A stretch of DNA of 64,000 bases, from NCBI GenBank assembly GCA_031835245.1, contig JAVKOQ010000160.1:48501-112500 (forward strand), given 5' to 3'. How positions within the stretch are numbered: the stretch's first letter is position 1; every line of letters begins with the position of its first letter. Positions 1 through 49,098 of the stretch are shown here, one piece after another. A program made the position numbers and the translations under genes. Under the pieces are notes generated by a model. The model saw nothing but the letters and a program-made list of their open reading frames with translations, was not told where the DNA came from and did not search any database. Origin of the DNA: Balamuthia mandrillaris. Its lineage: Eukaryota; Discosea; Longamoebia; Balamuthiidae.

Positions 1-336
1 CTCTGTTGCATTTCTTTCCACTTGACAGGAGCTTTGTTGTACAGTCTTCTATAATCAGCTTTCTGACTTGTTCTTCATTTCCATTGTCCACACTCCAGAT
101 TTTAAAGCGATCTTCCCAAAGGTTAGGACACCTTAACAGGAAGTGTTCCGCTGTTTCTTCCTCAGCATCACATGCAGGGCACTTGCTATCGTTGCTGCAG
201 GTAGTTTTGGTAGGGTTGTTGGGACAATGGTCATATGTACAACTACAGAACAACTTTGCATTTAAGGGGTTGATCATGGCTCCAAACAGCTCCAAAGAGA
301 TAGCCCCTGTTTGAAAACTGGAAATGGCCAGTATCT
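1..336 (-). mobile_element. 3' fragment of a LINE-like reverse transcriptase (C-terminal zinc-knuckle region)
   Basis: On the minus strand one frame is open from just after a stop codon near 337 to the left edge. It encodes about 110 residues with the Cys/His pattern CPAC-DAEEETAEHFLLRCP, preceded by a CSC and further Cys/His residues. This spacing (CPxC, x6, ExxxHxLxxC) is the hallmark of the zinc-knuckle after the reverse transcriptase/RNase H part of non-LTR retrotransposon ORF2 proteins. No start codon or RT domain lies upstream; the frame is closed after about 25 codons. I therefore read it as a 5'-truncated element, the usual outcome of incomplete target-primed insertion, or as a terminal exon of a domesticated copy. 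The rest lies left of the window. The family cannot be named from this piece. Confidence 0.55.
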
Positions 337-345
337 ATCTTGCAG

Positions 346-1795
346 AGCAGGAAGTCCAGTGTTCTTTGCTAGTAATGAGTACTTTTGGCCCTCCAATGCT
401 GACTTTGATGGTTTGCAGCACTTGCTTGATGATCAAGGAACAGGTAAGCAATTTTTTTAAAACAAAAAACACTTAAGGGTGACAGTAAAAAACTCAGGAG
501 GTCATTTGTTGTGGTATGGAGCACAAGCTGCCTTGCACTTAGGAGCAACGACTGACTTGGCATGGGACGCCAACTTAATGGACAACTACTCCACCACTCT
601 CAGCTTGGATACTATCGCCTTGGGCCAAGGCTCTCTTTCAAGCAGCCTTGCTGGTGCGATTTCTTTTGTCTGCTATACATTACAACCTATAACCTCCCCT
701 CCTTCCCTCTTCTGTCTTCTGTGCAGATAATGGTGGTTCATTGCTTGTGCTTGGTGCTGGATCCTTTGCATTTGGCTTTTGTATGCTCTTTGTCTCTTTG
801 TCTCTATCTCTGTCTCTGTTTACCTGCCTAGAAAAGTCTCTTTTTTTTTTGGGTTTGTTGATCCCAATTTTGCCACAATGAGCACAGCTGATGAAGGAAA
901 CATCACAATGTGGAGAGAAGTTGCTAGTTTCACTTGCTTTGGACCAAGGTGAGCAGTTGACAAGAATTAATAGCTCTGTCAGATTGATACTCACCAATCT
1001 GTGTCTTACATGTTTTTACAGTGGCTAACAAGAGTGAAATCTCTATTGGTGCTTATTCCATAGGATCTGTTGCCATTGGGCAAGGTGAGTTGTCAACAAG
1101 TGTTACTCACCATGTTGCACCTCACTTAACCACCTGTTTCCAAACATTTATGTTGTATTTCTTTCAGCTATTGACAATGGTGAAATTACAACTGGGAGTG
1201 AAAATACTGGGAGCTTGGCAATGGGTGTAGGTGAGTTCCAATAATGATAATTATGTTTCTACTGTCTTTTTTTGCAGCTGAAGGTGATGAAACATTTACT
1301 TCACTCTCTACTGGCGGGTATTCCAGGGGTTCAGTTGCCATTGGCTGGGGTAAGTTGTTATTAATTTGATGTGCATGTTGATAGTTTTGTAGACTATAGT
1401 AATCTATAATTCTTTTTCAGCCAGAAATGGATCGATCAGGAGTGGTGAAAAGGCTTCTGGTTCATTGGTTAGTTAAAATTATTGTTGCTGTATTGAATGA
1501 AACACTCAATTCTTTATAGCCACAATTGAAACAGGGTACTGTGCAGATGGTTCTGTTGCTATTGGCAATGGTGAGTATTGGGCATTCTTGCTTGTTCTGT
1601 CTCTCTTCATCCAAAATAGTAAGCAACTGTATCCTCACAATAGAAACGTTTTCCTTTGTAGTACCAACACAACAAAATTCAGCTTGGTTATGGGGCTCAT
1701 TACTGATACATCATGATTCAGGTCATGTTACACCTAAAGGTTCATCTGTTGTTGCTTTATTTTTTTCTAGTTCTATTTCTTTCTCTTTCTCTTAG
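346..1795 (+). CDS. Repeat protein with trimeric-autotransporter-head-like repeats, one repeat per exon (5' and 3' ends unresolved)
   Basis: Supported exons are 346-443, 486-653, 727-780, 888-948, 1022-1084, 1168-1230, 1278-1349, 1421-about 1459 and 1520-1570, each flanked by a GT donor and a pyrimidine-AG acceptor. Nearly all internal exons start and end in phase 1. Lengths are 168, 54, 63, 63, 72 and 51 nt, all multiples of three. Each short exon encodes one 17-24 residue unit ending in G-S-[VL]-A-[IM]-G, for example GSVAIGQ, GSLAMGV and GSVAIGW. This [GS]-x-A-x-G periodicity is that of YadA/Hep_Hag head repeats, which form a left-handed parallel beta-roll in bacterial trimeric adhesins. 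A bacterial-like surface or structural protein is inferred, not shown. Exon 888-948 is 61 nt and breaks the frame. Further weak repeat-like sequence runs to about 1795. The true start is not visible and may lie beyond the retroelement fragment. Confidence 0.6.
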
Positions 1796-2155
1796 TTGAT
1801 GCTGTATTTAAAGTGATTTCATGTTGTAATATAAGAACGGAATGATAGCAGAGACAAAGTATGAGACCCGAACTTAATTTACTAAAAGAATACAAGAGGT
1901 CTAATGGGTGTCTGAGGAAGAACGCAGGAGAAGAAAGGAAAGCAAGAGCAGAAGCACCAGCCCAAAAGTATACCCATGGAGTGCTTGCTAAATATGCCCG
2001 GATGGTTGGTAGTGCATCAAGTGGTGCCATTACCTCTTAGTAATGGATGGAAGTAAACCACGTCATACAAAAACCTTCCCTTACAGCAACAACAACTAAG
2101 ACTGCGACCAATCTCAAGGGTACATTACATACATTAACTTACAAGTGGTTCTAGA
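1796..2155. other. Gap between the repeat gene and PPT2
   Basis: No supported gene. A plus-strand frame at about 1910-2040 is open and ends in a stop near 2040. It could be a terminal exon of the repeat gene, but no splice signal joins it convincingly. Confidence 0.3.
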
Positions 2156-3735
2156 CTAGTCTAGAAATGGGGCAACACATTTAAGATAAACCGCTTCGTC
2201 GGAGTACCACATGCTGTGCTCCACGTTATTAACAATACACATTTTGAAGGATCCACGCTCCACTATTGTCCGCAAGCCAAACAAGTCTTTTTGATACACC
2301 TCTTGCTCACTGCAACAAGAAGATGTTTGGTTAATCATCATATATGTTTTGTGCATAACCAACAAGCACAAGAGAAAGCATACTCCATAGGGGTTACAAG
2401 CAACGGAGCGGGGTAGATCGTAGGACAATGGTAGAATCCCCAAACAGCACTCTGCCAAGGCTGAATGACCCCATCATCTGGCCCTCCTATTGCCACTATT
2501 TTGTTAACTTTCAAAAAGTTTTTCTTGTAGAGCTCGCTTTCGTTTGTTCGTCTGTGGGAAAGGTGGAGAAAAAATGGAGAAGCGTTAAATCAACGAACAC
2601 GGAGAAATGAATACATACAGCAGGACAGGATAACCTTTCGTTGTTGATGAGAGCGAGGAAAGCGCTTGCATTTTTGTAGTAATCGAACTCGTAGGGGTCT
2701 CGCCAGTAATTGGCAATGGATATCCAATTCTGGGCTGTTTGGGTGTAGAATACTCGATAGAGGGAGTCCCTTGTGTACTCTGGGAAGAGATAGCGTAAGT
2801 AGGACGTGTCCCCAAATCTTCATTCAAGGGTAGAACACTGAGGTAAGAATTTCGAGGAAGGAGCAAGAAGAGGGGCAAAGGGAAAGAAGGAGAAAGGCCA
2901 CAATCGAAAAAAACAAATAAGGAACATCAACCAAGAACATGAAAAAGTAGAAAAAGGACACTCAGAAGCAGGCGAACAAGAGAAGCTACGAATATAGGAG
3001 AAGGAACATAGCGAGAATAGACGTACTGTCCCATAAGTGGACCAGAGAGCGTAATAAAGTGTTTACACTTATGCTCCGGCCATTTGTGTATCACTCCACG
3101 CATCACCAATGTGCCTTTGTTGGGCGGTTACATGAATTGCAACAAAGAAAGAGACGAGGTTAATCGCGCTTTCAAGAGCATCCTTACAGAGGACGAAAGG
3201 AAGGGAGGAAGGGAGGAAGGCGGTGAACCTTGGCTGAAAGCAATGCAATGGTATCCTTTGTCAAAAAGAGGAGGAAGCTGTTTCATCACTTCGATGGCAG
3301 CCGTAACTTGAATCCACATAGGCTCCAGAGTACTTATGTAGTTCATGATGTTGAGACTTACCATGGGAGCACCTGGATATGTTTTGTTTATGTGTTCCAT
3401 CAAGGGTTCCTGTACATGAGAGTGAAGGTGGCCATTGTCAATGAAAAAAACAGGAGGAAAACAGTTCAGAGCCAGATGCTCGCATGGTAGAATCATACCA
3501 TGGCAGCAGAGGACTCGAAAAGGCCGTGCATGATAACCACTGGAGTGTGGCTGGTGTCAGGCGCTTCCAGGTTTCTTGTTTTGACAATGATGGCCGGAGT
3601 TGGGAGATGCCCCTCCACCACGTGAGCAGCGGCAGAGGAAGGAACCCCCCACAGGACTAAGGCGATGGTCAGCGCCAGGGCTACATAAACCCACTGCAGT
3701 ACGGTAGCGAAGGTGGTTGCCGGGAGAGTTTTCAT
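2156..3735 (-). CDS. PPT2: Lysosomal thioesterase, PPT2-like
   Basis: Palmitoyl-protein thioesterase 2 family: alpha/beta hydrolases that cleave long-chain acyl thioesters in lysosomes. The first exon (3735-3499) begins with a hydrophobic signal segment and reaches the family motif VVIMHGLFESS. The second (3409-3229) carries the nucleophile-elbow start AFSQG-G. Later exons give SGPLMGQY near 3030, NYWRDPYE near 2690, IGGPDDGVIQPW near 2475 (catalytic Asp) and EHSMWYSDEA near 2210 (catalytic His). The motifs follow PPT2 more closely than PPT1, including the KDLFGLRT block near the C-terminus. The Ser-Asp-His triad is complete. One junction near 3020/2830 is not resolved in phase. A PPT1-type paralogue lies at 53.7-55.0 kb on the same strand. 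The divergent neighbour at 4022 shares the 290-bp upstream region. Confidence 0.9.
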
Positions 3736-4021
3736 GAGCAGAAGAAAGGTTTGTGAGGGACGGGGATGGGGGAGGGCTGGAGGGCGGTGCTTGCTTGGGT
3801 TTTTGCGGTGCTTTTTCTTCTCTTGCTTCAGGAGGATGAAAATGGTGAAAACCCATAGCCTTACGGGGAATGACCGCTCTTGTGGGTTCGTTGAGGGGTG
3901 GCGAGCGTGCGGTGAAAATTCCAGAAATTGGGTTGGCGGAAAGGGGTACCTGCACCTTGGAGGTTGCTAACAGGTTACCCGCCCACCTGCCTCCCCAGCT
4001 CTGGTTATCCCCTTTGCCACG

Positions 4022-6670
4022 ATGAGGCGGAGTGAGCTTGCGGAAAAGGACAGTCCCACGGAGACCGAGGCAAAGACACAGACAGGTCTTGCCGACCAGT
4101 TGTTTCCTTCTTTTCGCCTCAAAGTATGCCGCCCTGAGCGCTTCCAGAAACTGTGGGATGACTCCAAAACGGGGGCCGCGCCTAGTTCCGTCACCATTCT
4201 TCGCCCCATTCCCCCCACTGGTAAGACTTTCATATCTCTCTAGCTTGTGCGACAGTAACAGTGCGTCCGATGATGATGACGATGATTTTTTAAAAAAAAA
4301 GGTTATTACAGACTTGGTGACATTGCTGAACGAGGAAAGAATCCCGAGGTTCTTGACCCTTCTCGCTTTCCTGTCTCAAAGGTAAAAGAACGTGATGAGG
4401 CTTGTTTCGTCGTTGCTGAGATAGAGACCAATCCAACTCTACCTTTGTTGGTGCCTCCAGTGGACTACCGCCTTCTTTGGACGGAGAAGGGCTCTGGTGC
4501 TAGCTTTGGTCCTTGTTCCTTTTGGGTACTTCCCCATCTGTCTTCTATCCTCTCTTCTCTCGTTTTCGCTCTTATAACGCTTAAACGGAATAAATAGGAA
4601 CCGGTGCCTCCAGCAGGATACAAGGCGTTAGGTTGCGTGGCTAGTCAGGACTCTCGTTATAGCAGGCCTGATTTGGACCTTATTCGCTGCGTTCATGAGA
4701 GCGTGGTGGTCACAGGAGCGCCTGGTTTCGAGCAAGATGGCCTATGCTTGTGGTCAGACATCAATTCTGGAGCGTCGTTTGGTAGATGCTCTATTTGGCG
4801 CATTCACCCTCTGTCCCCGCTGGCCTATTCTATAGCCCCTTCCACACGGTTATTATCATTAACTTCCTCTCAGCTATCGTTATCCAAATCCTCGTCCTCG
4901 TTCACTCCCTCCTCCTCCTCCTTTTCCTCGTCATTAGCTTCCGAGCTCTCTCCTTCTGAGTCATTCACATCGTCTTCATCTTATGCTCTCGCTTCACAAG
5001 AGCAAGGGTTCTGTGTGGGCGCGTTCACCGTCAACAGAAACTACATAAAGCCTAGTCACCAAGTGTTTTGCCTCCAGGATAGCACAACAATTTCTGAACA
5101 GGACTTGGAGGCTTCCATTCGTCAGATAGAACAACGGCGACTGAAGACCCGTAAATCCACTCTTCTTCAAAGCCTCCTCTATGAATATACTGAAGAGAAA
5201 GATCAACACTACACGCAACGTATCCAACAAGTGATCCAATGCCAGCGGCACGCGAAACGCTGGCTTATGCATAGCAAGCTTAAGAAGATGGGTACTGAAT
5301 GTCTTTTTTGGTTCGCAGCTCACACGAAAATAATACTAACCCTCCCGACCCAAGTGCGAGAGTACTTAGCCTCAGAGCATGCAAAAGCATATCGCCATCG
5401 CTCCAAGATCATAGCAGAGCTTATATCAAGTGAAGAAAAATATGTGGAATTTTTGGAAATATTAACAACAGTATGTTCCTTTCTCAAACTTAAATGGTTT
5501 ATCATCACTTATTAACTTCTCTACCAGCGTTTCTATGAACCATTAAAAGCTGCTGCAGAAAACTCTAAACTGGGAGTTGTAACCCCCTACCATATTGATA
5601 TTATATTTTGCAATATTGAAGACATCCTTGTGACCAATCAATCTCTTTTCAATGCCTTGTGTCTGGAAGTAAATAAGGAGAATCCTGCTATAGGAGCAAC
5701 GTTTGCTAAGAAGGTTTCTTGTCCATTGTTTTTCTTTTTTCTTTTTTCTTTTTTTTTTTTTTTGCTACATATTAATGAATACACTCCTCAGTTATCATCG
5801 CTAGTAGTTTATAACCGCTATTATGAAAATTTTGAAAGTGCCAACAAGGTGCTGCACTGGTGTCAGCAAGCTGTCCCAGAGTTCATAAAAGCAGTCAAGG
5901 TTTGACTTTTCCCTTGTTTGCCAACCATTACTAACCCTATCTTTTACAGAAACTAGAAGATTCCCAAGAGTCCACAAAACTACACTTGGACTCTTTGCTT
6001 GTAATGCCTATTCAACGATTGCCTCGTTATGAGCTACTTCTCAAAGATATCATCAAGCACACGCCAGAAAGCCATATTGACCTACAACTAATGCGCAACG
6101 TGCTCAAGGAAATTCAAACTCTTGCTGCCCACTTGGATCAACTTGCTAACGACCAGTTGAACCAACACCAAAATATCTTATCTTCTGCTCTCCATATACA
6201 TCATGTTTGTATCTATCTTGTCCTTTGTGTTTCTTCAACTTTCCCAAGTGCTTATTTCCAAGCTGTTTGTAATTTAGGTGGAGGTTGGTGAAGTTAAATC
6301 TGTGTTGATTGTAAGTGGAGAGGAACTTAGAAGATTGGACCAAAGTGGCTCAGCCTATGATCCTACCAATTTTTATATTATTTTTCCTTCCTCCAACAAG
6401 CTAAGCCCAGGGCCAGGTTGGATTCGCTTAAAAAATACTGGCAGAGAGCCAATTGAACTTTGTAGCCTTAAGAGAAAGACTACGAAGAGATGGGTACAAT
6501 TCCAACTTTCTCCATTTGCTATTGAGATATTTGAATATAAAGGTTGGTGGTGCATTGAAATTGTTGCTGGCAATGTTACCAACTTAAAAGTAACTGGATT
6601 TGCTACAAGTGGTGGCTATAGTTTGCTTCGCAAAGACAATCCTCGCACAAATCGCTTACTTATGTGTTGA
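4022..6670 (+). CDS. Vps62-domain / RhoGEF (DH) fusion protein
   Basis: Seven exons (4022-4220, 4302-4525, 4598-5470, 5528-5713, 5792-5899, 5950-6204, 6278-6670) join in frame to 745 residues. Residues about 65-250 carry two blocks typical of the Vps62 (DUF946) family: YYRLGDIAERG, PPVDYRLLWTEKGSGA, PVPPAGYKALG and WSDINSGA. A low-complexity Ser stretch follows. Residues about 405-615 form a Dbl-homology domain: IAELISSEEKYVEFLEIL (CR1) and LLVMPIQRLPRYELLLKDII (CR3). DH domains catalyse GDP/GTP exchange on Rho-family GTPases. The C-terminal ~130 residues look beta-rich but are not a recognisable PH domain. The Vps62 half is of unknown biochemical role, so localisation is not inferred. Start chosen at the first ATG of the open first exon. 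Confidence 0.85.
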
Positions 6671-6800
6671 TAGCAAAAAAATGGAAACAAAAAATAAAAA
6701 TTAAAAAATAAAACAAAACTGATCAAGGGTGAGCAAATGGGCCAAAATGTATCAATCAAGAAGAAATAAAGGAATAAAGGCTAGTTGTTATTCACTTGTT

Positions 6801-9095
6801 TTACCAGAAATCACCACATGAACAGTGGCCATCTTCTGTGAAATGATGAAAGCGATTTGCATCTCGCACAACAATTGACCGTTGGCGTATCTTAGCTATC
6901 AACTTGGTAACAGTATGGCAATCAGGACACACTCGCAGATTTTTGCTTATTAACAAGGGAGTGCCTGGTGGTGTGTGCACTAGGCCAAAAGCAATTGCTA
7001 GCTTTTCACTATGATAACAAAGCCGTTTGACTTTTTCCTCTTCTTCTTCATCCCAAGTTACCAAACGAGTGTCCGGCACATATCCTTTTGCACTCAGCTC
7101 CGTTTGTAAAGTCTGTAATTCCTTATATACCTCCGGGGAACATTGTTGGCCAGCCACAAAGTGGTGAGTCTTGCCCTGCAATTCTATCCACGTTTGTCCA
7201 GGAATCTTTTTGAGACCCAGATCAACCATGCGTTGTCGAATCCTAGTTGCATCACTTTGTCTTCCAGCTGCAGCGTAGATGTTACTAAGCAGAACGTGTG
7301 TTGCAGCATCCGGTTCAGATAACTGCCAGATCTGTTCTGCTGCTCGTGTGGCGACATCAATGTAGCGATCTTGTTCAGCTCCTCTGTGTTAGTAGGTGAA
7401 AGAATCAAGTATTAGGAACATGGAAATCTAGGTGAATTGCACACCGACACAATGCACAAACCTATATCCCCTGCATGCGCCTAGTAGTGTTCGCCATGCG
7501 ACCTCCTGAGGTTTGTTCATTTGGAGGACCAACTTCTCAGCTTTTTCAATGTGACCAGCACGGCCTAGAGCATCTACTATGCAGGTCCAATGGCGGGTGT
7601 TAGGCTGTATTCCCCATTTACTCTCCATAGAATTGAAAAGGTGCATTGCATCCTCCACAAGCCCATTGTGGCTACATGCATTTAAGGCAGCAATCAAGGT
7701 AACATCGTTGGGATGTACTCCCCTAGCTGTCATCGCTTGCAGCAGCTCAAGGGCTTCTTTGGCGCGACCATGCTGGCCATAGCTGTGTATCATTGCCGTC
7801 CACACACTCACTGAAAGCTGCTGCCCTTCGTATTCCCTTTGTTGAGAGGCTTCTGTGAAGACTGAAAGGGCGTCCTCAAGTCTGCCACATTTGCTGTACA
7901 TATTAACTAATGATGCGTAGAGCTTATCTGAGCACTTGTGTCTTGAGGCAGTAATTTTATCATGGACTTGCCGTCCCAAAACCGGAGCTACATACATCGC
8001 GCAGCCATTAAGCAGTACAAGGTACAAGCCCTCATCTGTAAGTTTAATTCTGTGACTCTGTGCCCAGCCGAAAAGATCCATGGCCTCTTGTAATCGTGGT
8101 GGGGATGCCTTGCACAATGCTTGTGCCAACTGCGTGCAATCTATCTCGTTTGGTAAATCAAATGAAAGTTCCACCTCCCTTTCCTTCTCCTTTCCTTCCT
8201 TCGTTCCTTCGTTTCTTTGCAGGGACTTCCACAGCTTGTTGGCAAGCTCTCCATCTTGCACTACACTACATGCATGGGTGAGGGTTGCAAAGCATTTGTC
8301 ATTGATGGGGACGTGGTGAGAGGCCATCCAGGCCAGTAAAGCTCTGAGGTCCTCCATCCGAGGGGGGGATGCCCTACAGAAGGTCTTTGCCAGCTGGGAG
8401 CAGTCAATAGCGTTGGGAACGAAGGGCATGGTGCTCCCCTGGCTTTGCATTTTTCGAAGCAACCAGCTCGCTATCTCTCCGCTGGAGGCCGTAGCTTCAT
8501 GGCCAGCATAATCACTACATGCCCGCAATATAGTCCGAAAACAGGCTTCGTGGAGGATGACACGGTTAGCCTCCATCCATAGAAGTAACGTCATAGCATC
8601 CTGCAGCCGAGGGGGGGATGCCCTACAGAAAGCCTTTGCCAGCTGAGAGCAGTCAATGGCGTTGGGAACAAAGGACAGTGTTCCAGGCCTGCTCATTCGT
8701 TCCAGGAGAAGCTTGGCCGTATCAGCGTCAGCCGCCTCTCCACAGGCATTAGTGAGGATACCAAAGCATTGTGCGTTGGGCGTGACGCCATAGCGCGACT
8801 GCATGCTATCGAACAGATGGAGGGCGGCCCCCCTATCCTTGGCTCCACAGTAGGTCTTTAGCAGTGCTCCTATGATACGCACGTCCAGCCGAAATCCAAC
8901 TGTTTGGAGGGTGTCCACTACTTCCTTGGCCGAATGTAGGTCCTTCCGTGACCCTAAAACAGATATGAGCACCATGGCCCCGTCAGAGCTGGGTTCACTA
9001 CTCAATGCCAACTTTGCTTCCTTCAGTTTGCCCTCCGCACAGAGCTTCCGTACCACCGAAAATTGCCCCGATGGCGCTCTTGTCGCCCTTTCCAA
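6801..9095 (-). CDS. PPR protein with E and DYW cytidine-deaminase domains (organelle RNA editing factor)
   Basis: Two exons (9095-7462, 7383-6801) join in frame to 738 residues. The N-terminal ~560 residues are pentatricopeptide repeats, including canonical units such as VSVWTAMIHSYGQHGRAKEA. They are followed by E-type motifs (LLSNIYAAAGR, IPGQTWIEL) and a complete DYW deaminase with HSEKLAIAFG (HxE active site) and CPDCH plus the terminal HCSC cluster for zinc. DYW-PPR proteins convert specific C to U in organelle transcripts. The protein ends in CGDFW, so the signature tripeptide is DFW rather than DYW. Repeats around 8340-8640 contain near-duplicate segments (IDCSQLAK-FCRASPPR), showing recent internal duplication. 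No clear presequence is visible at this start, so an upstream ATG or exon is possible. Confidence 0.93.
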
Positions 9096-36121: not shown

Positions 36122-38236
36122 TTATCCTTTGTCTCTAGGGGAGCGTTTGTGGTGATGCCTGCTGTACTGAGAATAGCCACTTGCGACGACCGCATCTCCA
36201 CTATTTGCCATCTTTTTCGTTTTCATCTTCGATGCTGTCTTTTGGCGATTGTTGGAACGTTGCGGACAAGAGCGTTCAAGCAGAGCGGAGAAGGAGCGTA
36301 GCATAGAATCAGAGATCGGCCAGCGAGCAGCTGCAGCGCTGCTTTGCAGGAAGAAGACAAAAGTGTCCGAGTAGGAAATGGGCCGGCGTCGAGAAGGGCG
36401 ATGCTGGAAGCCAGGTAGGTAAGCGTGCTGACGCTTTGCCAGCACCATCTTTTTGGTAAGGTAGAAACTGTCGGCCATTAGTTGATAAGAGGGAGTGTCC
36501 TTCCATCCTGGCACGAACACAGCAAACGATAGAGGACGTCGCCTCTTTTCCGCACAATCCAACCATCGCTCCATGCACAGCGCTAACGCCAACATTGTCT
36601 CCTCTAGAAACGGTGGATTTGCTTGGAAAGATCCTTCCAAGATATCACTGTCATCATCACTTTCTGCATCTTCTTTTTGTTGCTCTGAAGTTTCATGCCG
36701 AGAAGAGAGCCATCCGTGGAAGAGTGCCTCACGAAAAAAGTTGCCGCGACTGCCAAAGAAGCGATCCACGTCGAGAAAAGCAGAGGAGTAACATCCAGAA
36801 GGCAGACTACAGTTCAATGGGGAGGCGAAGCACTCGTGGCTAACTCCCAGCTTTGCTTGCAAAAACGCGAAGGCTTCCTTCGGTAAGGCCGCTTGGAAAC
36901 CCTCACCACCAAGACCTTCGTAGCGAGCCACCATGCAAAATAGTCTTCGCAAGAATGCCTCTTCTAGGTCGTCCATCAGCGGGTCGATTGTTTGATCGTG
37001 CTTGTCTGATTCATGCTGTGATTCTTCGTTTCTTGTATGCGTTGGTGAATAATACTCTAACTTTTCCTTTGCATCGCGTTCTTGTTCTTTGTCTGATGCT
37101 GCTTCTTCTTGTTCTTGCATTTGTTCTTTTCCTTTCTTCTTTTGGAGAGAACGGTTGGCTTCACCGTTGAGTCGCTCATTTCGAGTCATTGATAGCACAA
37201 AGCGCTGCTTGATAACATCATCCACCTTCAAACTAGCTGCATACAATCTTACCAGCTTTTCGTAGTGACTACGACAGATCGAAAAAGAATGATCTGCAAA
37301 GCCTATCACCACTTCCTCTTCTTGTTTTGGCGGTTCCACCGCTCGTATCTCCTTCCACACGCATTCATCTCCTCTGCTCCCATCACCTTCCTTCCGCTTT
37401 TCTTCTTCTCGAAATGAGGCCAACGCAGTTGCTCGCTCAGCAACAGCCTCGCTTAGCTTCAAACAGATATCTTGTGCCGCCTCTACTGATAGTCCCTGTT
37501 TCAACAGTTCGTGGTAAAGTCCTGGATCCGCCTTCCAACCGCTTGAGGAAGAGGAAGAGGAAGAGGAAGAAGAAGAAGAAGAAGAAGAAGAAGAAGAAGA
37601 AGAAGAAGAAGAAGAAGAAGAAACAGGAGAAGAAGAAGAAGAAGAAGAAGAAGAAGAAGAAGAAGAAGAAGAAGAAGAAGAAGATGAAGAAGAAGAAGAA
37701 GAAGAAGAAGAAGAAGAACAAGAACAAGAAGAACAAGAAGAAGAAGAAGACGAACAAGAAGAAGACAGATAAGGACAGGCAGGAAGTAGAGGGTCACAGG
37801 CATGAGTGTGTGGTTCTACCATCTTTTGGGTAAAGCACCAGCGAGAAAAGGCGCAGGAGGGAGCAGAGGGCAAGCCATGGTTCCTGCACAGCTGCTGCAG
37901 CAACCGCTCCAGCGACTTGACAGCGTGCCACCGCATTACTGCAAGCTTAGGAAAGTCTTCTTCTGCTTCAGCTACTTTTGCTTTGGCCTGTTGGCAGCCA
38001 AGTGGAGGGGTGTTCAAAGCGAGAAAGGCTCGTGCGAGCGCAATGTTGTGTTGCCAACGTTCCACCGCTGCTCTGAGTGCCAAGCAAAGTTAGTGCACGT
38101 TGGTAATGAATCACCAAGAAAGAGGAAGGAAAAAAATGCCAAAACCGCACTACCTCGTAAGAGCCAGCTCTGGTCGTGGCTGCAAGCGCCTGTTCAGCTC
38201 TTCAGCGTTCCACCATGAGTCCTTGTCACCTTCCAT
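36122..38236 (-). CDS. PCIF1: PCIF1-like mRNA cap m6Am methyltransferase
   Basis: Two exons (38236-38154, 38072-36122) join in phase 2 to 677 residues. PCIF1 (CAPAM) adds N6-methyl to a cap-adjacent 2'-O-methyl-adenosine. The catalytic motif ANPPF is present in EGSFQANPPFLEETMLAL, preceded by the family block CFASPLNC, YSSAFLDVDRFFGSRGNFF and followed by PLSFAVFVPGW. An N-terminal helical region (RRLQPRPELALTRAAVERWQ) matches the pre-catalytic helices. No WW domain is visible, unlike animal PCIF1, so binding to phosphorylated Pol II CTD by that route is not expected. A tract of about 75 residues, mostly Ser, lies at 37540-37775 and is encoded by gaa/aga-type repeats. It splits the helical domain from the rest. 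Divergent from the CX9C gene. Confidence 0.9.
37540..37775. repeat. (GAA)n-type repeat coding for poly-Ser in PCIF1
   Basis: Imperfect gaa/gaagaa repeats on the plus strand read as tct/tcc/tca Ser codons on the minus strand, within the PCIF1 reading frame and with no stop. A plus-strand frame across it encodes poly-Lys/Glu and is a by-product. Confidence 0.9.
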
Positions 38237-38653: not shown

Positions 38654-39145
38654 ATGAGCGGGTGGTGGGCCAGCGAGCAACAGAAGGACGAGGTGCTACA
38701 GTCCTTTGACCGGCTGCAACAAAAGTTCGACGAGCTGGTGGGCACCTGCGACGAGCAGCTGCTCAGACTGGACCAGTGCAACAACCAACGCTCACCCTCA
38801 GGCGGAGGCGGGCGACAACGTTTTTCGCTGGTGATGAGGGACGGCCGACCCACTTTCACAGAGACTGCCACAACCAAGGAAGAGGAGGAGGCAAGGAGGA
38901 GTCAGTGCGAGAAGGAGAGGGAGGAAGTGGTGGCATGCATGCAGGCCATGGGCCAACGCTTCAAGCTGGTGAGGGAGAAGTGCCCTCGCTTCAAAGAGGA
39001 ATACGCCACCTGCATGACGGAGCAAGGCGGCAAGGCCCTTCACCGCTGCGTTCCCAAGCTGGAGGAGCTCTACGCCTGCGCTACCCGCGTCTTGCCTCGA
39101 GCTCTTTCTTCTTCCTCCTCTCCTCAACACAACAACTCCTCCTGA
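38654..39145 (+). CDS. Quadruple CX9C (CHCH-type) protein
   Basis: An intronless 163-residue ORF with exactly four CX9C motifs: C-DEQLLRLDQ-C, C-EKEREEVVA-C, C-PRFKEEYAT-C and C-VPKLEELYA-C. CX9C pairs form helical hairpins locked by disulphides. Proteins of this class are imported into the mitochondrial intermembrane space through Mia40. Four motifs in one protein recall the complex I subunit NDUFA8, but other NDUFA8 features are not evident, so I leave it unnamed. The 34 residues between the first and second motif are Gly/Thr-rich. The C-terminus is Ser-rich. Translation from MSGWWASEQQ gives no cleavable presequence, as expected for Mia40 substrates. Confidence 0.78.
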   Translation: MSGWWASEQQKDEVLQSFDRLQQKFDELVGTCDEQLLRLDQCNNQRSPSGGGGRQRFSLVMRDGRPTFTETATTKEEEEARRSQCEKEREEVVACMQAMGQRFKLVREKCPRFKEEYATCMTEQGGKALHRCVPKLEELYACATRVLPRALSSSSSPQHNNSS

Positions 39146-39638
39146 CTTCAACAATGAAGAATGAACAGGACTCTTGTTTGGCGCGGTTCTTCTTGAAGCG
39201 TCCCCCCAGGTGTCCTGTCCTCCTCCACCCGCCGCCACTTTTACTACTGGACGCAATCTGCCCCCTCCTCTTTCTTCATCTCCTCCGGAGGAAGTGAAGA
39301 AATTACGCGGTTGGGAAAAGCGGGCGAAAAACGGAGGGCGCATTGGCGGCAATTCCACCCGCAAACCCCTGTGGAACGAATACTAAAAACAACAACCTGT
39401 TGCTCTGCTTGTCTTGTTTGTCTCTGCCATTCATTGGGTGAGTGGACCCAACCCACTTTCGTGCTTGTCAACCAAACCAACCCTTGGGGGGCTACTACTA
39501 CTGCCCATTCATTCATCACCACTTGTTATTCCAAGAACACATTTTGGAGAACTCTCTTGGCAGAAAAAGAAAGTGTAAGTTACAGGATAGCGGCTGTTGT
39601 GGTTTGCAGCTTTAGTACACAGACCTACATGAACAACA
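39146..39638. other. Gap between CX9C gene and protease
   Basis: Plus-strand genes on both sides. No supported gene; short open frames only. It should include the CX9C gene 3' UTR and protease promoter. Confidence 0.3.
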
Positions 39639-40808
39639 ATGGCGACAAAGAATAAGCAAGTACCAAGGCGCGTGGCATGGGTAGGAGAAGGCCTGTTGCT
39701 CTTGATAGTGATGATGCTCTTGACCAGCACCCCCACCAGCGTTCATGCACATGAAACAGAGGGACAGAAAGCAGAGGAAGAGAAACAAGGCTTGTCGCCC
39801 AAACGGATCATAGAAGGAGAGATAGTGGGGGAAGGGGAGGAGTACCCCTGGATGGGCATCCTCTACGTGGTGCACCCCCAGTTGGACCCAGGGCAGCCCA
39901 TCTGGCGGACCAGGAACTGCGGCTGCAGCCTCATCGCCTCCCAGTACGTGCTGACGGCCGCCCACTGCTTCGAGGAGGTCAGAGCGGATGTGGGAGGAGC
40001 CTCCGCCTCCGACTTTCGAGCGGTCTTTGGGCTGAGGGACCTGCGTCAGCTGACCGTGGGGCAGGCGGAGGAGGAGCTGCGCGTTCACCGTGACGTGGCT
40101 AGCACTCGCCGAAGGGTCTTCCAGGTGGAGCTCGGCGTCATCGACCATCGCTTCCGAGGGGACGAGAGCTTCGTGGTAGGAGACACTGCCTTGTTGAAGC
40201 TCAGGCAGAAGGTGGTGGCCGGAAGCGGGCTGGTCCCCGTGCGGCTGCCCCTCTCCCTCTCCATCGAGCAGCAGCAGGAGCAATGGACGGGAAGGCCCGT
40301 CAGTATGATGGGCTGGGGACGCACCGATGGGAGGGACCCCGCCACCACCTCCCCCGTCCTTCGCATCACGCGTCGACTGTTCGTGCAGTCCCAGGAAGAG
40401 TGCGTAGACAGCGTCCGCGCCTCCGCCGAGGCTTTGGGCGGGAGCACCTCGTTCACCACCTCCGAGGCCCAGCTTTGGGTCTGCGCCGCCTCCAACCCCG
40501 TTGGAGCGTCGGGAGCGTCCGTGGGGGACAGCGGCGGCCCGTTGTTCCTGGAGGATGAGAACGGGGAGGGACCCATGCAGATCGGCGTGATGAGCTTCGG
40601 CAGGGACTACCCTTGGGCCTCCCCCAACGGGCAGACCTATCCCAACGTGTGGACCCGCATCTCCCCCGATTGGCTGCAGCAGCAGGTGCGCGTGACGGGC
40701 GGCAGCCTGGAGGACCCCCCTGAGGCCGCTGAGGATGGGGCCGACGTGGAGGACCACGGAGGCAGCGGATCTTTGCTCGCTTCCTGCTTACTTCGTTTCC
40801 TCTTGTAG
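39639..40808 (+). CDS. Secreted trypsin-like serine protease (family S1)
   Basis: An intronless 389-residue ORF. A hydrophobic segment (LLLLIVMMLLTSTPTSVHA) after a basic start is a signal peptide or anchor. The protease domain starts at RIIEGEIV, close to the usual IVGG activation site. The triad is complete: TAAHC (His), DTALLKL (Asp) and GDSGGPL (Ser). The block QYVLTAAHCF is preceded by CGCSLI, matching the usual Cys-His disulphide. The C-terminus has a Gly/Asp/Glu-rich linker and a short hydrophobic end (SLLASCLLRFLL), compatible with but not proof of a GPI signal. The gene is noticeably more GC-rich than its surroundings. An ~80-bp piece of it recurs at 58.9 kb. Confidence 0.92.
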   Translation: MATKNKQVPRRVAWVGEGLLLLIVMMLLTSTPTSVHAHETEGQKAEEEKQGLSPKRIIEGEIVGEGEEYPWMGILYVVHPQLDPGQPIWRTRNCGCSLIASQYVLTAAHCFEEVRADVGGASASDFRAVFGLRDLRQLTVGQAEEELRVHRDVASTRRRVFQVELGVIDHRFRGDESFVVGDTALLKLRQKVVAGSGLVPVRLPLSLSIEQQQEQWTGRPVSMMGWGRTDGRDPATTSPVLRITRRLFVQSQEECVDSVRASAEALGGSTSFTTSEAQLWVCAASNPVGASGASVGDSGGPLFLEDENGEGPMQIGVMSFGRDYPWASPNGQTYPNVWTRISPDWLQQQVRVTGGSLEDPPEAAEDGADVEDHGGSGSLLASCLLRFLL

Positions 40809-40887
40809 AACAAATGTTGTTGAATTTTTTTTTAAAAAAAACCACTCTCAAGTGCTATCAGAAGAGATCGTGCGGCTCTTCTCTCTT

Positions 40888-40939
<52 letters not shown>

Positions 40940-41102
40940 CCTCTCCCTCTCATTCTCTTATCTTCCTCTCACAGAACCAAGTTGAATTTCTTCGAAAAAA
41001 TTCCAACAACAACAACAAAAAGCAAAACAAAGAGAAGACAACGGAGCATGGGAAGGGCAGGACTGGCAGGCAGTGGCGGTTGGTTTAAGAGAGGCTCTCC
41101 TC
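40809..41102 (+). repeat. Intergenic stretch with (CT)n at 40891-40950
   Basis: Between two plus-strand genes. A long CT run on the plus strand is followed by an A/C-rich stretch. It may sit in the 5' leader intron of the GTPBP6-like gene or be intergenic. Confidence 0.6.
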
Positions 41103-41884
41103 ATGGGGTGGCGCCTCGCACCGGTCCGGCTGGTCAGCTCTCTGGCGCTCGATGGACACCACTCCTCGTTCGCTCCCCCCCTCCTCCTGCTGCGGAGCGG
41201 ACCTGCTCGTCCTGTTTCCGGACCCGAACAGCTTTTGCCTCGACGTCGCGGCGTACGTTTGCCTCGGGCAGCAAAGCCCCTTCCTCTTCACCGGGCTCCA
41301 CGATGGAAGCCAGATTCTCTCGCCAGCAACGCCTCTCCAGAGCGCACAGCCAAAAGGGACAGAGCAACTGGGCCGCCGCCGAGGATACTCTCCCTGAGGA
41401 ACCTACCGAAGCGCACGCTGCCCTTCAGGCTCTTAAGCCTGGCAGCCTTTGGCAAGACCCTAACCGCCCACCACAGGTATCGCTTCATAGCGCCTTCTTG
41501 CTGTTTGCTCGTGCTCTTGTCTTTTGTATGCTCTTCTTCTTGTTCTTCTTTTTCTTCGTCTTCTTGTCCTTTTTCTTCTTCTTCTTCTTCTTCTTCTTGT
41601 GGGCTCATGGTATGCTTTGGTGCCTCTTGATAATAGGTGATGATCATACACCCGTTTGTAGGAAACAGAAAGAAGCACAAGAAAAAGAAGAGCAAAGAGA
41701 CAATGGCCATATCTGCTGCATCACAAGAATCAAAGGAAGAAGATGAAGATGACATTGAGAAAGACGATGCTGCCACCTCAAAGACAGGTCATTTAGCCAT
41801 GAACTCGCCTTTTCTTGCTTTGATACTGACTATCTTTTTTCCCCCTAGAGTTTTTGCAACTTCGTCTTCAAGAAGCAGGTTTGT

Positions 41885-41925
<41 letters not shown>

Positions 41926-43662
41926 CCTCCCCTCTTCCTCCCTCTCCTCAATGTTGACCCACGAAAATTTATTTATTTAGTGGCCTTGACGGAGGCATTG
42001 GAATGGCCAGTAAGCCATGCTCAAGTCATCAAAGTGAATGCCATCAATGCAGCAACATTCTTTGGAAAGGGCAAAATCCAAGAACTGAAAGCGTTGCTGG
42101 CTCAGCGTCCATGCGACATTCTGGTCATCGACAGCCTTTCCCTTCAGCCCACTCAAACCTTCAACTTGGCCTCACAACTTAATTGTAGGGTAAAATGAAT
42201 ACACCACCACTGAAAATGAATAGCTTTCATCTCCTCGCATCTGTTTTTGACAATCAAAACAAACAATGATATAGGTAATGGATAGGTTTAGGCTTATATT
42301 GGAAATATTCTATAACAGAGCTCAGAGCAGAGAAAGCCAATGTCAGGTGGAGTTAGCCTCGTTGCCATATCAACGTATGCACTTGAGTACTGCCCTTCAA
42401 TCCGTCCATTTGGCACAACAACGTGGTGGTGGTGCCTTCTTGGCTGGCGCAGGTGAGACCTTGTTGGAGTTAGAACGCAGAAAGCTGGATGAGCGCGAGA
42501 AGAAGCTAAGACAGGAGCTAAGACAGATCTCCAAGTCCAGAGAGTTGCAACAAGAAGGTAGCAACTCATCCTTTACGTTGTTTTGTTCTATTTCTAATGT
42601 TGTTGGTTTAATGAAGTGCGGAAAAACAGAGAAATGCCATTAGTAGCATTATTAGGATACACGAATGCTGGAAAGTCAGCTATACTCAACCGATTGGCCG
42701 GTACATCATTAATCAGCCATGACATGCTCTTTGCTTCTCTTCACAGCCATGTGCGCGGAATCCGATTGCCTTTAGGTTGGTTGTTTATGCTATGTATCGA
42801 TAAAATAACTAATAGGCTTTAACAACAAACAACAGGAACAAAAGTATTAGCAGCAGATACAGTTGGGTTTATCAGCGATTTACCACATGACTTAGTGGCA
42901 CCTTTCACAGCGACGTTGGAGAACATCAATCATGCTGACATAATGCTGCATGTACGGGATGTTACTCATCCAGAGGCTCGTCGCCAGGACGAGAGTGTAC
43001 ATCAAGTATTGCGGCAGATGAACGTTGATCCTTCTTCTTATCATCAAACCCTAGATGAAGACCAGACGGCTGGCGAAGGAAAAGGAAAAGAGTTTTTGGA
43101 GGTATGGAACAAGGTAGACTTGTTGGATGAAGTGACAAAACAACAAATGAAAAGCATCATACTCGCAAAACGGAACAAAACACAACATCAACAAAGTCAA
43201 CATCCAGAAAACGGAGACAATCTAACTTTGCATTCAACATCTTCTGGTATAGACAGTGAAGCACTGTTGGACGAACTGCGCAGGAAAGACAACGTTTTCC
43301 TGATATCAGCCAAGACAGGGGAAGGCTGCGATGAACTGTTGCAACACGTGGAAGAAAGGATCCATCGCAAGTATCCTGGGAAACAAACCAAGCTCTATGA
43401 ATTCCTGGTGCCGGTGTCATCTTCGACGGGACAGGCCCAAATGAACTTCCTCCACCGTAACGGATTGGTCAAAGAGATCAGAGATGTGACGAAGCCTGCG
43501 CATGACACATTAGAAGGAAATGAAGAAGAAGAAGAAGAAGAACAAGAACAAGAAGGAGGAGGAGGAGGAGGGGAAGATAACGAAAATAAGCTGATGTCCG
43601 TGGTTGTACAGATGGAAGTGCAGGCCTTCAATCAGTTCATGACCCAGTTTGCAGAAAAGTGA
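41103..43662 (+). CDS. GTPBP6: Mitochondrial HflX-family GTPase (GTPBP6-like)
   Basis: Seven exons (41103-41476, 41669-41787, 41849-41878, 41981-42189, 42275-42557, 42617-42775, 42836-43662) join to 666 residues. HflX/GTPBP6 proteins bind the large ribosomal subunit and split or mature ribosomes. The Arg-rich start MGWRLAPVRLVSSLALDG suggests mitochondrial import. The HflX N-domain shows ATFFGKGKIQELKAL and VMDRFRLILEIFYNRA. The G domain has G1 GYTNAGKSAILNRL, G3 DTVGFISDLPHDLVAPF and G4 NKVD, and the characteristic LHVRDVTHPEA block follows. The switch I Thr usual in bacterial HflX is absent (FASLHSHVRG). A Glu/Gly-rich run sits near the C-terminus (43525-43580). Exon 3 is only 30 nt. A TTC repeat in intron 1 and CT repeat in intron 3 precede acceptors. 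Confidence 0.92.
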
Positions 43663-43909
43663 GCCGAATAAATATAAAATGGGATTGTGTTTTAGCGAAG
43701 CGGTGCACCTTGAATTAATTAATTAGGTAAGCGAAATTTCGGAAAAACCATTCCCATAATAGAATTGGTCTTGCACTTTTTTCCGATTGGCCCAGAAATA
43801 TGAATATTTTAGATTACAGTTTCACAAAGAGGTTTTCTGATGTTCCTGTTTTTATTTTTTTTTTTTTGGTTCGTTACGCCAAAGACAGAACCGAAAGTGA
43901 ATCACGGGG

Positions 43910-45129
43910 ATGGCAGCGCAACAACAAGAGGTAGTGGTAGCGAAAACCTATGTGGAGGGAACCAGGCAACCCAAAATCTGGCCCTGTATCGACGATATTT
44001 ACTTCACAGAGGACTTGGTTTGGCTGGAGAGCGCGAACCCTCTTCGTCCCACCTGTTACAAAAGAAAAGGCGGTCTATCGGACTGTACGCAACGCATAGG
44101 TCCCGCTTTGTACACCAAAAACTATGGCCTGTTCCGCTGCGGCTGCTTCCTTGGTGAATGCTGCCTCGATGACCAACTCCGTGGACGGCTGCTCTTGCGA
44201 CAAGCGCTCGGTCTTTCGAGCAAAGCCGACGTCGAAGCCGAGGAGGAGGAAGAAGACGGACCAGAGTCCAGCAACGTAGAGCTGCAACGCTTCTTCGTGT
44301 TTGGTAAGTTTAGGATATTCGTGAGGGCCACTCGAAACCTCCGACGCAACGAAAAGCTCGAGTAAGACGGATCGAGGATAGTGGACTATTTTGGCCTTCT
44401 TCTTTGTTAGAGCGTCTTCGAGGTCTGCTTCAAACGGAAGCATATGAAAGCAAAGAAGATGAAGAAGGAGAAGAAAGACAGTCAGATTACTTGCAAATAC
44501 GAAAGATAGCAGATAAGCAGCATCCATGCAACGGACAACACGGTTGCTTTGCCCTATTGCCTTATAGAGAGGGTGAAGTGGTTTGCATCTACGCTGGTGC
44601 TGTTGTGAATATGGACGTGGACGAATACGAAAGCTACTATAACGTGGACTACAGTACCCAGTCGGCACCAGAGCTGACCTCCCGCATGAGAATGGACGCC
44701 TCTTGGATTGGCAACGAAGCGCGTTACATCAACGACTATCGCGGTGTTCCATCTTCATCGTCAGCCTCGAGTCCGAATGTTAAGTTGGAAAAGGTATGGC
44801 TGGGTGTGGCTCAACCACTTCATTACCGCAGACTCCTCGAAGAAGAAGAGGAGGAGGATCATCTGGTGGTGGTAGTACAATGCATCAGAGACATTGCTGT
44901 GGGCGAGGAACTGTTATTGGACTATGGAACACGGTTTGTGTTTGTGTTGTTTTCGTTGGAGGAAGTGGAGATGGTTTCATGAACAATATAAAAGGATAGT
45001 GTTGCTGACACCTACCAAAACCACTGCACTTGGCTGGTCGGTTGGTTGATTACACTATTTACATTTAGTTCCGAATGGTTGTGGCTGATGAAAATGGAAT
45101 GCTTTATCGTGATTGTGCTGGCCAATTGA
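43910..45129 (+). CDS. SET-domain protein
   Basis: Three exons (43910-44303, 44411-44933, 45069-45129) join in frame to 325 residues. The second exon holds a SET domain: GCFALLPYREGEVVCIYAGA, NEARYINDYRG (N-x-x-x-x-I-N-D in place of NHS) and VAVGEELLLDYGTR-like end (read as IAVGEELLLDYG). SET enzymes transfer methyl from SAM to lysine. The first exon is Cys-rich (TCYKRKGG, RCGCFLGECC) and might bind metal. The proposed intron 1 contains a protein-like stretch (FRIFVRATRNLRRNEKLE) and then VDYFG, which itself resembles the end of a SET domain. An alternative model therefore has the first exon continuing and ending independently. The joined model is preferred because the second exon has no usable ATG of its own. 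Confidence 0.68.
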
Positions 45130-45323
45130 GGAAAGGAGTTAGCTGTTTTAATCACTCAATTACTGACCTTTTTGTTTATGTTAACCTCCGTTCTTTCAAA
45201 TTCTCCAAAACGTTTGAACTTCCTGTATAGTTATTGGGGGCCACCAGAGAGAAAAATAAACGAACAAAAAAACCGTTTTTTTTTTCTATAATAATAGACC
45301 AATCACAAATCAAACAAGATACT

Positions 45324-46707
45324 ATGCAGCAAGAAGAAATAAGAGAAGAGGCTGTGGAAGAGGAGGAAGAGGAAGGCCTGCTGGAGAATGAAAAAGAAGT
45401 ATTTCTGTCGGAGGTGCACATCACGGAGACACCACAACCAGAAGCTGGCATCGGTGAGGACCGCTTTATCACTCGGTTGAAAATCGTGCTACCACTTTCT
45501 TCTAGCCAACCCAGGCGCGATGAAGAGAACACGGCCGCCTCCCACAGAGAAGGAGGTATAGCAGTCGATGAGGAAGGAGACCTCATTGTCGTGAGGCGCA
45601 AGGTGAGCACAGAAGAGGAAACACAACAACAGGTGATAACTCTGGTGCACTCGATGGCGTCGCCGCTTTGCTCGGTGGGGCTGCAGCTGTGGCGAGGCGC
45701 TCTGTTGCTGTCGGATTATCTCCTCTATGAGGGGCATCGCTTGTTTCAGGGCTGCAGCGCGATGGACCTGGGCTGTGGCGTTGGGCTTACTTCCATCGTG
45801 ATGGCCATGTTTGCCAGCACGCTATGGGCCACTGGTATGAACCCGTTCCTGTTATTATGTGTTCATTTTTTTTTAAAGCAGGTCATTTTATGTGTTGTCT
45901 CATGAACGAACGAATGAAGACTATGAGGAGGAGATACTGAAAAACTGCGAGCGAAATATCCAGCTAAACTCCTACTTGTTCAACAGTAGCAATGCCTGCT
46001 CCTCCAATCCTGTTCATGTCAAGATGTACTCTCTCTCGCTCGCTCTATTCCTTCTTTTCTTCTTTCTCTTTCCTTAGCGTTCTATGTTGCAGTCGCTAAC
46101 ATGTTTTGAATGTTCCTGTGAAGGTTGGATTGGAGCAAAGGCATTCAAACGGCGGAAGAGAATGGTGGCTGCAAGGATGAACGGTTCTGTTGGTCAAGCG
46201 AAGAAATGAAAGAGGTAGCCCGTGTGTCTGTATTTCTGGCGGCTGATGGTAACGGCTTTTAACTCCTACACTTGTGCAACTGCTGATCGCCTTCTGCTCT
46301 AGTTATTTATGAGGACAGCATTACAGACAGTTTCTTCCACACACTAAGGTTTCAATCTTTCTCTATAGGTCTTCTGCAGTGTTCTTGGTTTTTAACAACC
46401 TCAGTGCAGACAACTTATGCAATTGACAGAGAGTGAAGAAGGAGGGAGTCAAGCATCCACAGCCTACATCGCTATCGAGAAGCGGATAAACTTCACGTTG
46501 GAAGACCTGGCTCCCACGGCAAAGGCTTATTCTCATTTCCGCACCTACTTTATCGCTTCGGATGATGAGCAGAGAATCGATGAACAAGCAAAGACGGAAG
46601 GACGGCCACATTTCAAGGGCACACTTATCTCCACAGACTGCGTACCGCAATACTTTGATTATGATAGAGTGAAAGAGTTAGAATTGTGGAACCTGACCTT
46701 GTTGTAG
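45324..46707 (+). CDS. METTL22: METTL22-like protein methyltransferase
   Basis: Five exons (45324-45834, 45920-46025, 46124-46248, 46303-46348, 46410-46707) join in frame to 361 residues. METTL22 is a class I SAM-dependent lysine methyltransferase; the human enzyme acts on the DNA/RNA-binding protein Kin17. Sequence blocks in order are SVGLQLWRGALLLSDYLLYE, the SAM motif MDLGCGVGLTSIVMAMFA, NCERNIQLNSYLF, LDWSKG, FLAADVIYEDSITDSFFHTL and YIAIEKRINFTLEDL, ending in VKELELWNLTLL. All occur in the same order in METTL22. The N-terminus is Glu-rich. The exon 2 acceptor at 45919 gives the expected Asp after LWAT. The 3' end converges on the PhyH gene with only 80 bp between stops, filled by a CT repeat. 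Confidence 0.9.
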
Positions 46708-46741
46708 GCCTTCTTGTAAGTTAACTTCATAGCTCATGAAG

Positions 46742-46743
<2 letters not shown>

Positions 46744-46780
<37 letters not shown>
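46744..46780. repeat. (CT)n between convergent METTL22 and PhyH genes
   Basis: About 18 CT units occupy the short spacer between two convergent stop codons. Confidence 0.9.
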
Positions 46781-46782
<2 letters not shown>

Positions 46783-46786
46783 ACAT

Positions 46787-48242: not shown

Positions 48243-48270
48243 TATACTTTTGCTTCCTTGTTTCTGCTTT

Positions 48271-48393
48271 CTAAAAAGAAAGAGAAAAGAAAAGAAAAGA
48301 AAAGAAAAGAAAAGAAAAGAAAAGAAAAGAAAAGAAAAGAAAAGAAAAGAAAAGAAAAGAAAAGAAAAGAAAAGAAAAGAAAAGAAAAGAAAA
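48271..48393. repeat. (AAAAG)n pentanucleotide array
   Basis: About 24 copies of aaaag lie immediately upstream of the PhyH start and ~50 bp downstream of the SAC1 stop. Pure and therefore probably unstable in length. Confidence 0.95.
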
Positions 48394-48446
48394 TGGAGAA
48401 GCTTAATTGTTTGCTTTAAGAGTGCTGTTGTTCCTTGATGATATAC

Positions 48447-48809: not shown

Positions 48810-48840
<31 letters not shown>

Positions 48841-48886
48841 CAAAATAAATTAAGAACCAGAAATAAGAGCTACAGAGAGCAAGAAC

Positions 48887-48928
<42 letters not shown>

Positions 48929-49098
48929 CAATGATGGTGAGAACAGGTCTGTAGTTGTTGAAAGGTGAAGTGGTGATAGCGCTTTGCTCATCAACGATGT
49001 AATTGCCCAAGAACAAATCGAAAGAGTCCTTTATTTATTTTTTAGGAGTAAATAGATGCATTGTTAGGTCGGAGGGAGGGAGAGAGGAGGGAGGGAGG

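Follow-up and report, generated by a model that had tools for sequence, protein, structure and literature searches.

A probably decayed repeat-exon locus of Balamuthia mandrillaris and its family, related to bacterial YadA-head and tail-fibre proteins

Introduction

In trimeric autotransporter adhesins of the YadA type, head repeats are followed by a coiled coil, and the repeat of the YadA head is given, in the section of PMC9543794 that deals with it, as the 14-residue motif GxNSVAIGAxSxAx. Canonical 14-residue repeats, matched by Pfam YadA_head (PF05658), also make up intronless bacterial “tail fiber domain” proteins such as P0002 (Kapabacteria) and P0022 (Ferruginibacter), and YadA-type proteins have been reported in viruses of eukaryotes, according to extracts of PMC12906663 and PMC12220804. 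In the open-access PMC literature we found no published report of a YadA-head-type protein coded by a eukaryotic nuclear genome; the Hep_Hag rows beside PfEMP1 in the relevant portion of PMC2575384 are domain-table entries and were set aside. As regards gene structure, the LRR genes of Tetrahymena, thousands in number, hold arrays of 90-bp exons in phase 2, and their authors state, in the passages of PMC6564038 on this subject, that no other eukaryote with such uniformity is known to them. Fibrillar collagen genes, as outlined in part of PMC4450265, contain runs of 54-bp exons of 18 residues each, which code for a long extracellular rod.

The locus at positions 324-1570 of the window (i.e., the whole stretch of 64,000 nucleotides analysed here) is, in our judgement, likely to be a decayed member of a secreted, fibre-like family that follows the plan of bacterial YadA-head and tail-fibre proteins and in whose youngest genes exon-intron units were copied. 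This amoeba family shares the G-S-x-A-x-G core with the bacterial YadA_head proteins and, as in the trimeric autotransporter adhesins, its head repeats precede a coiled coil; it differs from the YadA_head proteins in repeats of 18-20 residues, in having one exon per repeat, and in lacking both a Pfam match and Peptidase_S74. Set by eye against the motif as worded in that section of PMC9543794, the amoeba repeat retains G-S-x-A-x-G and is longer by four to six residues. With the Tetrahymena LRR genes, as far as the same passages of PMC6564038 describe them, it has in common equal-sized exon arrays, a single intron phase, introns that are alike within a gene and recent clonal expansions, whereas its exons are of 54-60 nt and phase 1, its genes are a handful, and its repeat is of prokaryotic type instead of an LRR fold. 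The collagen rod, following the portion of PMC4450265 cited, is a Gly-X-Y triple helix with no sequence relation to the amoeba repeats, and its trimer is established, whereas that of the amoeba family is presumed.

Candidate exons of the window locus

Reading of positions 250-1800 of the window gave eight candidate exons with AG/GT borders on the + strand (498-1570). They are listed here together with an exon remnant in front of them and two exons further upstream on the same contig (C159); C2 carries the one close DNA relative of the locus.

324..443, + strand: remnant of an N-terminal exon (its end only), donor GTAAGC at 444, aligning with C2:153576 onward
498..653, + strand: cap-module exon, 156 nt, phase 1-1, open, with the looser ending GSLSSSLA
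727..780, + strand: repeat exon, 54 nt, phase 1-1, G-S-x-A-x-G ending, last letter T instead of G
888..948, + strand: repeat exon, 61 nt, frame-breaking, ending in SFTCFGP; C2 counterpart of 60 nt (one-base difference)
1022..1084, + strand: repeat exon, 63 nt, phase 1-1, GSVAIG, hit by the fixed pattern
1168..1230, + strand: repeat exon, 63 nt, phase 1-1, GSLAMG, hit by the fixed pattern; C2 counterpart two bases shorter
1278..1349, + strand: repeat exon, 72 nt, phase 1-1, GSVAIG, hit by the fixed pattern
1421..1467, + strand: truncated repeat exon, 47 nt, frame-breaking, stopping at GS, donor GTTAGT; C2 counterpart of 60 nt
1520..1570, + strand: repeat exon, 51 nt, phase 1-1, GSVAIG, hit by the fixed pattern
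C159:43526-43588: upstream repeat exon, 63 nt, some 5 kb ahead of the window
C159:43653-43712: upstream repeat exon, 60 nt, containing an in-frame TGA, some 5 kb ahead of the window

The closing NADFDG of the remnant resembles, by eye, the NNDFDG that closes exon 1 of two related loci described below (C20 and C310); the start of this exon was looked for and not found. A sequence-only reading of the locus had described at least seven small exons, most of them phase 1-1, each ending in G-S-x-A-x-G and in perfect correspondence with the repeats. The number and phase of the exons are borne out, since there are eight candidates and six of them are multiples of three with phase 1-1, but those of 61 and 47 nt (888-948 and 1421-1467) break the frame. 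The strict ending is present in five of the eight (those starting at 727, 1022, 1168, 1278 and 1520), with 498-653, 888-948 and 1421-1467 deviating, and the perfect correspondence proves too strong for the window copy, although it holds much better in intact relatives.

A fixed exon pattern (a CAG or TAG acceptor preceded by pyrimidines, an open phase 1-1 exon of 48-81 nt, a G[SAT]x[AVTSG]xGx ending and a GGT[AG] donor), composed after inspection of the locus, matches four times in the 64-kb window, always on the + strand of the 701-1800 locus and never on the − strand. The same pattern gave no match in 1000 dinucleotide shuffles of 701-1800, nor on either strand when the entire window was shuffled 10 times; because of these counts, the tiny repeat-coding exons of the window are not due to chance.

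Intact-looking family members in the genome

The genome of Balamuthia mandrillaris (64.8 Mb, 775 contigs) was searched at the protein level with the window exons, one of them completed from the C2 relative, and the loci C20, C48, C55, C310, C511 and C550 were reached. For C511 the model is complete (25 exons, 729 aa) and runs from a signal peptide, recognised by eye, through an N-terminal region and the cap to 22 repeat exons and a final exon that codes for neck and coiled coil; a heptad pattern occupies a short, best-fitting stretch at its C-terminus. C20 has two first exons read by eye, 47 repeat exons of 54, 57 or 60 nt (C20:119308-126109) and then an open last exon as in C511, the called exons tiling the locus with 46 introns of 62-124 nt. 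In the stretches covered, 21 repeat exons were called in C48, 29 in C310 and 30 in C550, while C55 is composed of nine exons that fuse a neck to the next cap and 45 tiny exons of 54-63 nt, with ten caps in the search list. Searches of the whole genome list 17 sites for the cap and 26 for the C-terminal part, two of the latter (on C2 and C60) being weak; the C-terminal list also includes C113, C529, C98, C85, C27 (two) and C202. The C-terminal modules at C113:165173-165544 and C529:25720-26091 score the same as those of C511 and C48, and the two loci may be second assembled copies of C511 and C48.

Each intact repeat of C511, C48 and C20 lies on its own phase 1-1 exon, and the 89 repeats of these loci are 18-20 residues long rather than 14. 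The exon caller takes only lengths divisible by three between 42 and 84 nt and gives a bonus for 18-20 residues, so that the agreement in phase throughout the called loci is partly built into it; likewise, the uniform exon array found in C20 is one in which divisibility by three was imposed and narrow sizes were favoured. On the reverse strands of five loci the fixed exon pattern gave no match. In C20:119308-126109, 21 of the 46 introns open with an unusual donor, GTGCTT, in one of two repeat types, the second main donor being GTAAGC (17 of 46), and 15 of the 46 would introduce a stop if retained.

Selection and growth of the repeat arrays

Between C48 and C511, exon lengths differ in none of 21 comparisons and intron lengths in 17 of 20. 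Their repeat exons are under purifying selection on a translated product, with a dN of 0.047 against a dS of 0.149 and differences by codon position of 22/15/44. The introns of these two loci are at background (0.56 vs 0.53). In the other three arrays the median identity of an intron to its best partner within the gene reaches 0.89 in C20 (computed over the first 31 called exons), 0.91 in C550 and 0.83 in C310, compared with 0.58 after shuffling, and best-partner identity of the exons is 0.89, 0.93 and 0.89, respectively. Since introns are thus about as alike as exons within a gene, it was whole exon-intron units that were copied in C20, C550 and C310. This agrees with the growth by exon duplication that the sequence-only reading had put forward, while its idea of a spread by exon shuffling finds no counterpart, what is observed being duplication within one gene family and not shuffling into other genes.

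Relation to bacterial head and tail-fibre proteins

With the C511 protein as query, 7998 candidates were scored and 107 proteins found at E <= 1, in a search that relatives sharing few exact words, or models of other length, escape. The best match is P0001 (3.6e-57, 32% over 70%); Pfam YadA_head is found in 90 of the 107, and among those listed the names are bacterial. A shortened C20 protein as query gave 18 proteins at E <= 0.01, four of them with YadA_head. The database includes EukProt, MMETSP and NCBI eukaryotes, and among the matches of either query there is no protein from EukProt or MMETSP, none with a eukaryotic name and no copy of C511 itself, so that the NCBI annotation of the genome seems to lack a protein model of 400-1275 residues for C511.

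One link is the cap, a module of the form G-x-G-x-R-x-x-W-Y...A-F-R-A-G...W...I-G, which is homologous and 50-54% identical in bacterial proteins such as P0002 and P0022. The family cap matches 92 of the 125 proteins retrieved and the repeats alone match 30, as against none for the reversed and shuffled queries (three shuffles in the case of the cap), a comparison that favours the forward direction, the 125 having been collected with forward queries. The window exon 498-653 fits the family profile at E 1.4e-10 and by itself matches 16 of the 125 below E 1e-3 (best 6e-11, the bacterial head protein P0003), and none when reversed. In prokaryotic genomes, 163 of 216 pattern matches were confirmed as caps, and the relatives listed (80 of the 163) are prokaryotic. 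A cap tree of 54 columns and 86 rows (78 of 80 bacterial loci, six amoeba rows, the window and P0001) has the amoeba rows clustered, but 60 of its 83 inner branches are open, and long branches lead to the window and to C20. Could a home-grown Gly/Ser/Ala-rich repeat merely have come to resemble YadA heads? The repeats are short and composition-biased, and Pfam YadA_head does not match them, but we regard such convergence as highly improbable in view of a cap that is non-repetitive and as similar to bacterial caps as stated above, of the 0 of 125 matches of shuffled and reversed queries (with the bias towards forward queries noted), and of the order of cap, repeats and neck, common to the amoeba family and P0002. 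In P0002 and C55 this order is, in addition, iterated several times. The likeness of the necks is one seen by eye, because the neck and coiled-coil part of C511 matches none of the 125 retrieved proteins, and neither do its N-terminal 118 residues.

On the level of sequence, the likeness of the cap exon 498-653 to bacterial trimeric-adhesin head proteins is one of homology. The resemblance to YadA/Hep_Hag heads pointed out by the sequence-only reading is therefore upheld at least for this module, but not by the profile search against the YadA head family that the same reading had proposed: Pfam YadA_head has no match in the six-frame genome, the window peptide, C511, the C55 module or the C20 repeats. 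Nor was a Pfam match found in C511 for the YadA stalk or membrane anchor, by which it differs from the trimeric autotransporter adhesins, together with a signal peptide that by eye is eukaryotic and a trimer that is presumed; the Peptidase_S74 C-terminal chaperone, unmatched in C511, is absent from many relatives too. Searches of Pfam, PHROGs and PDB with the amoeba sequences returned no relevant family, two PDB matches being CREB leucine zippers at E 3, and DNA-search matches on C367 were dropped as they looked like low-complexity DNA. By its predicted proteins, the family is not YadA_head in the Pfam sense, nor a trimeric autotransporter in architecture, and it is related to the bacterial head and tail-fibre proteins and probably works in a similar way.

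The long repeat, too, matches intronless proteins that are prokaryotic or metagenomic. In P0001, P0012, P0030, P0108 and P0120, which are single open frames with Peptidase_G2, Peptidase_S74 or a YadA stalk at the C-terminus, the repeats are mostly of 18-20 residues and contain the same I-x-A half as those of the amoeba; P0001 shares the cap as well. In this half, I and A are present in 79% and 71% of the 89 amoeba repeats (C511, C48, C20), and in 63% and 56% of 186 prokaryotic ones, all collected by their G-x-x-A-x-G part, so that the I-x-A half played no role in finding them. In P0120, Pfam recognises YadA_head and YadA_stalk and the long repeats lie, by eye, between them; because it joins the three, this protein connects the long repeat with the heads of trimeric adhesins.

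The combination of cap, long repeats and a Peptidase_G2 domain in P0001, the best single match, also bears on the route of transfer. The Peptidase_G2 part of P0001 is encoded in viral contigs (2 loci), and YadA-type proteins have been published for algal viruses and polinton-like viruses, in the extracts of PMC12906663 and PMC12220804 concerned, both of which would suit an arrival of the gene via a DNA virus and not directly from a bacterium. We consider this route unlikely, given that a cap scan of viral contigs produced three pattern matches and no confirmed one, that the cap relatives listed (80 of 163) are prokaryotic, and that the contig of P0001 carries no organism label.

Fold of the long repeats

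The AlphaFold2 model of the long-repeat protein P0030 is a solenoid. A Foldseek search with it found 110 matches at E <= 10, of which not one reached E <= 0.001, and no YadA head is among the best 50 of 172 re-aligned chains; nor did a YadA head come up for the control P0043, a Pfam YadA_head protein whose own model has a mean pLDDT of 49.9, with blocks of 72-87 over residues 171-270. The best alignments of P0030 to solved structures are to tailspikes, Ag43b and TibA and not to YadA, for one model and with a failed control. From these alignments, the repeats could form a right-handed beta-helix of one chain, like that of Ag43 or TibA, and thus a monomeric solenoid fibre. We hold this to be possible but doubtful, as the fold test does not discriminate when the control YadA_head protein is modelled poorly and retrieves no YadA head, and as P0120 has its long repeats beside canonical YadA heads and a YadA stalk.

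State of the window copy

Whereas the sequence-only reading took the window locus for a eukaryotic gene, the copy at 324-1570 looks dead, with broken exons and missing ends. It is probably a dead, decayed member of the family, because two exons break the frame, the 5' end is lost and no C-terminal exon is recognised. Its lesions comprise the exons of 61 and 47 nt, the TGA in an upstream exon and the reduction of the 5' exon to its end. Reading of C159 39001-52500 by eye revealed neither a start or signal-peptide exon nor one for neck or coiled coil, and C159 is absent from the genome-wide list of C-terminal modules. The only close DNA relative of the locus is on C2 (79%); five exons differ between the two by indels, including 888-948, 1168-1230 and 1421-1467, and the C2 cap exon carries two stop codons. 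Substitutions between window and C2 by codon position are 20/22/26 (Fisher p 0.07 against C48/C511), or 8/10/15 (p 0.42) in the exons free of indels. Since these counts are not clearly unlike those of C48/C511, the substitution pattern alone does not establish a loss of selection.

That lack of a clear sign of lost selection would also fit a copy that still works, with the frame-breaking exons skipped and the missing ends supplied by exons that escaped recognition: the remaining exons are all phase 1-1, which means that skipping 888-948 and 1421-1467 preserves the frame, and four of the repeat exons have good splice sites. A working copy is nevertheless quite improbable, considering the absence of recognised start, signal-peptide and neck/coiled-coil exons in the 39001-52500 interval read by eye, the missing entry for C159 in the C-terminal search list, and the upstream exons, one with a TGA and both located beyond retroelement-like fragments. 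We thus retain the reading of a decayed copy.

As for the surroundings, the flanking genes match C2 at 89-95% in inverted order, and the repeat locus only at 79-81%. Window 1897-7982 corresponds to C2:137501-143561 in inverted orientation (89-95%); the segment is either duplicated or allelic, and it is rearranged beside the repeat locus. Window 1-190 and L001:4720-9500 contain, in both orientations, frames that by eye resemble the C-terminus of a protein from a non-LTR retroelement (CPACDAEEETAEHFLLRCPNLW). Several such retroelement-like stretches surround the repeat locus or lie on C2, and they separate the upstream repeat exons (C159:43526-43712) from the window locus.

Proposed mechanism and significance

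The ancestral sequence would be of bacterial or viral origin; introns would have been gained in the amoeba, and the repeat exons would have multiplied afterwards. A lone repeat exon of 54, 57 or 60 nt between phase-1 introns could be copied or lost with the frame kept, and in the youngest genes exon-plus-intron units were copied repeatedly, presumably by unequal recombination between near-identical introns, a growth process that we infer. The product may be an extracellular fibre, adhesive or structural, that is secreted, whose C-terminal coiled coil would join three chains and in which each repeat would form one coil of a beta-solenoid rod; a role in adhesion or in the cyst wall is a guess from the relatives. 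Fibre length would then follow exon count, and with the rise of 4.8 A per coil reportedly found in BpaC, 47 coils would span about 22 nm. The full proposal (that a eukaryote adopted a bacterial fibre-head protein with one symmetric exon per coil, that recombination between introns sets its length, and that the resulting secreted trimeric fibres, of many lengths, were missed by annotation because their exons are tiny) is one to which we give even chances.

If true, this would be a clear case of prokaryotic-type repeats turned into single exons in a eukaryote, and protists would have a further system of uniform exon arrays next to that of the Tetrahymena LRR genes, the second of its kind. Old stages (C48/C511), young ones (C20/C310/C550), a modular one (C55) and apparently dead ones (window, C2) would stand side by side in one genome, so that the order in which transfer, intron gain and exon multiplication took place could be put to the test. 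Furthermore, it offers a candidate family of secreted fibres in a free-living amoeba that the search of annotated proteins does not return.

Other features of the window

A tRNA-Ser (GCT) gene lies at 51413-51494, the Rfam search yielding tRNA only. In 56001-58000 the + strand is strongly biased towards purines (GC skew 0.37, AT skew 0.34), and both strands have long open frames that overlap; the stretch is probably a simple repeat. On the − strand, 36122-38089 holds a PCIF1-type frame (Pfam 1.1e-43) whose best match is a Balamuthia mandrillaris protein at 87% identity, with copies on C2 at 90-95%; its 3' part (query 1424-1644) recurs on other contigs as many repeats of ~220 bp, about 80-98% identical.
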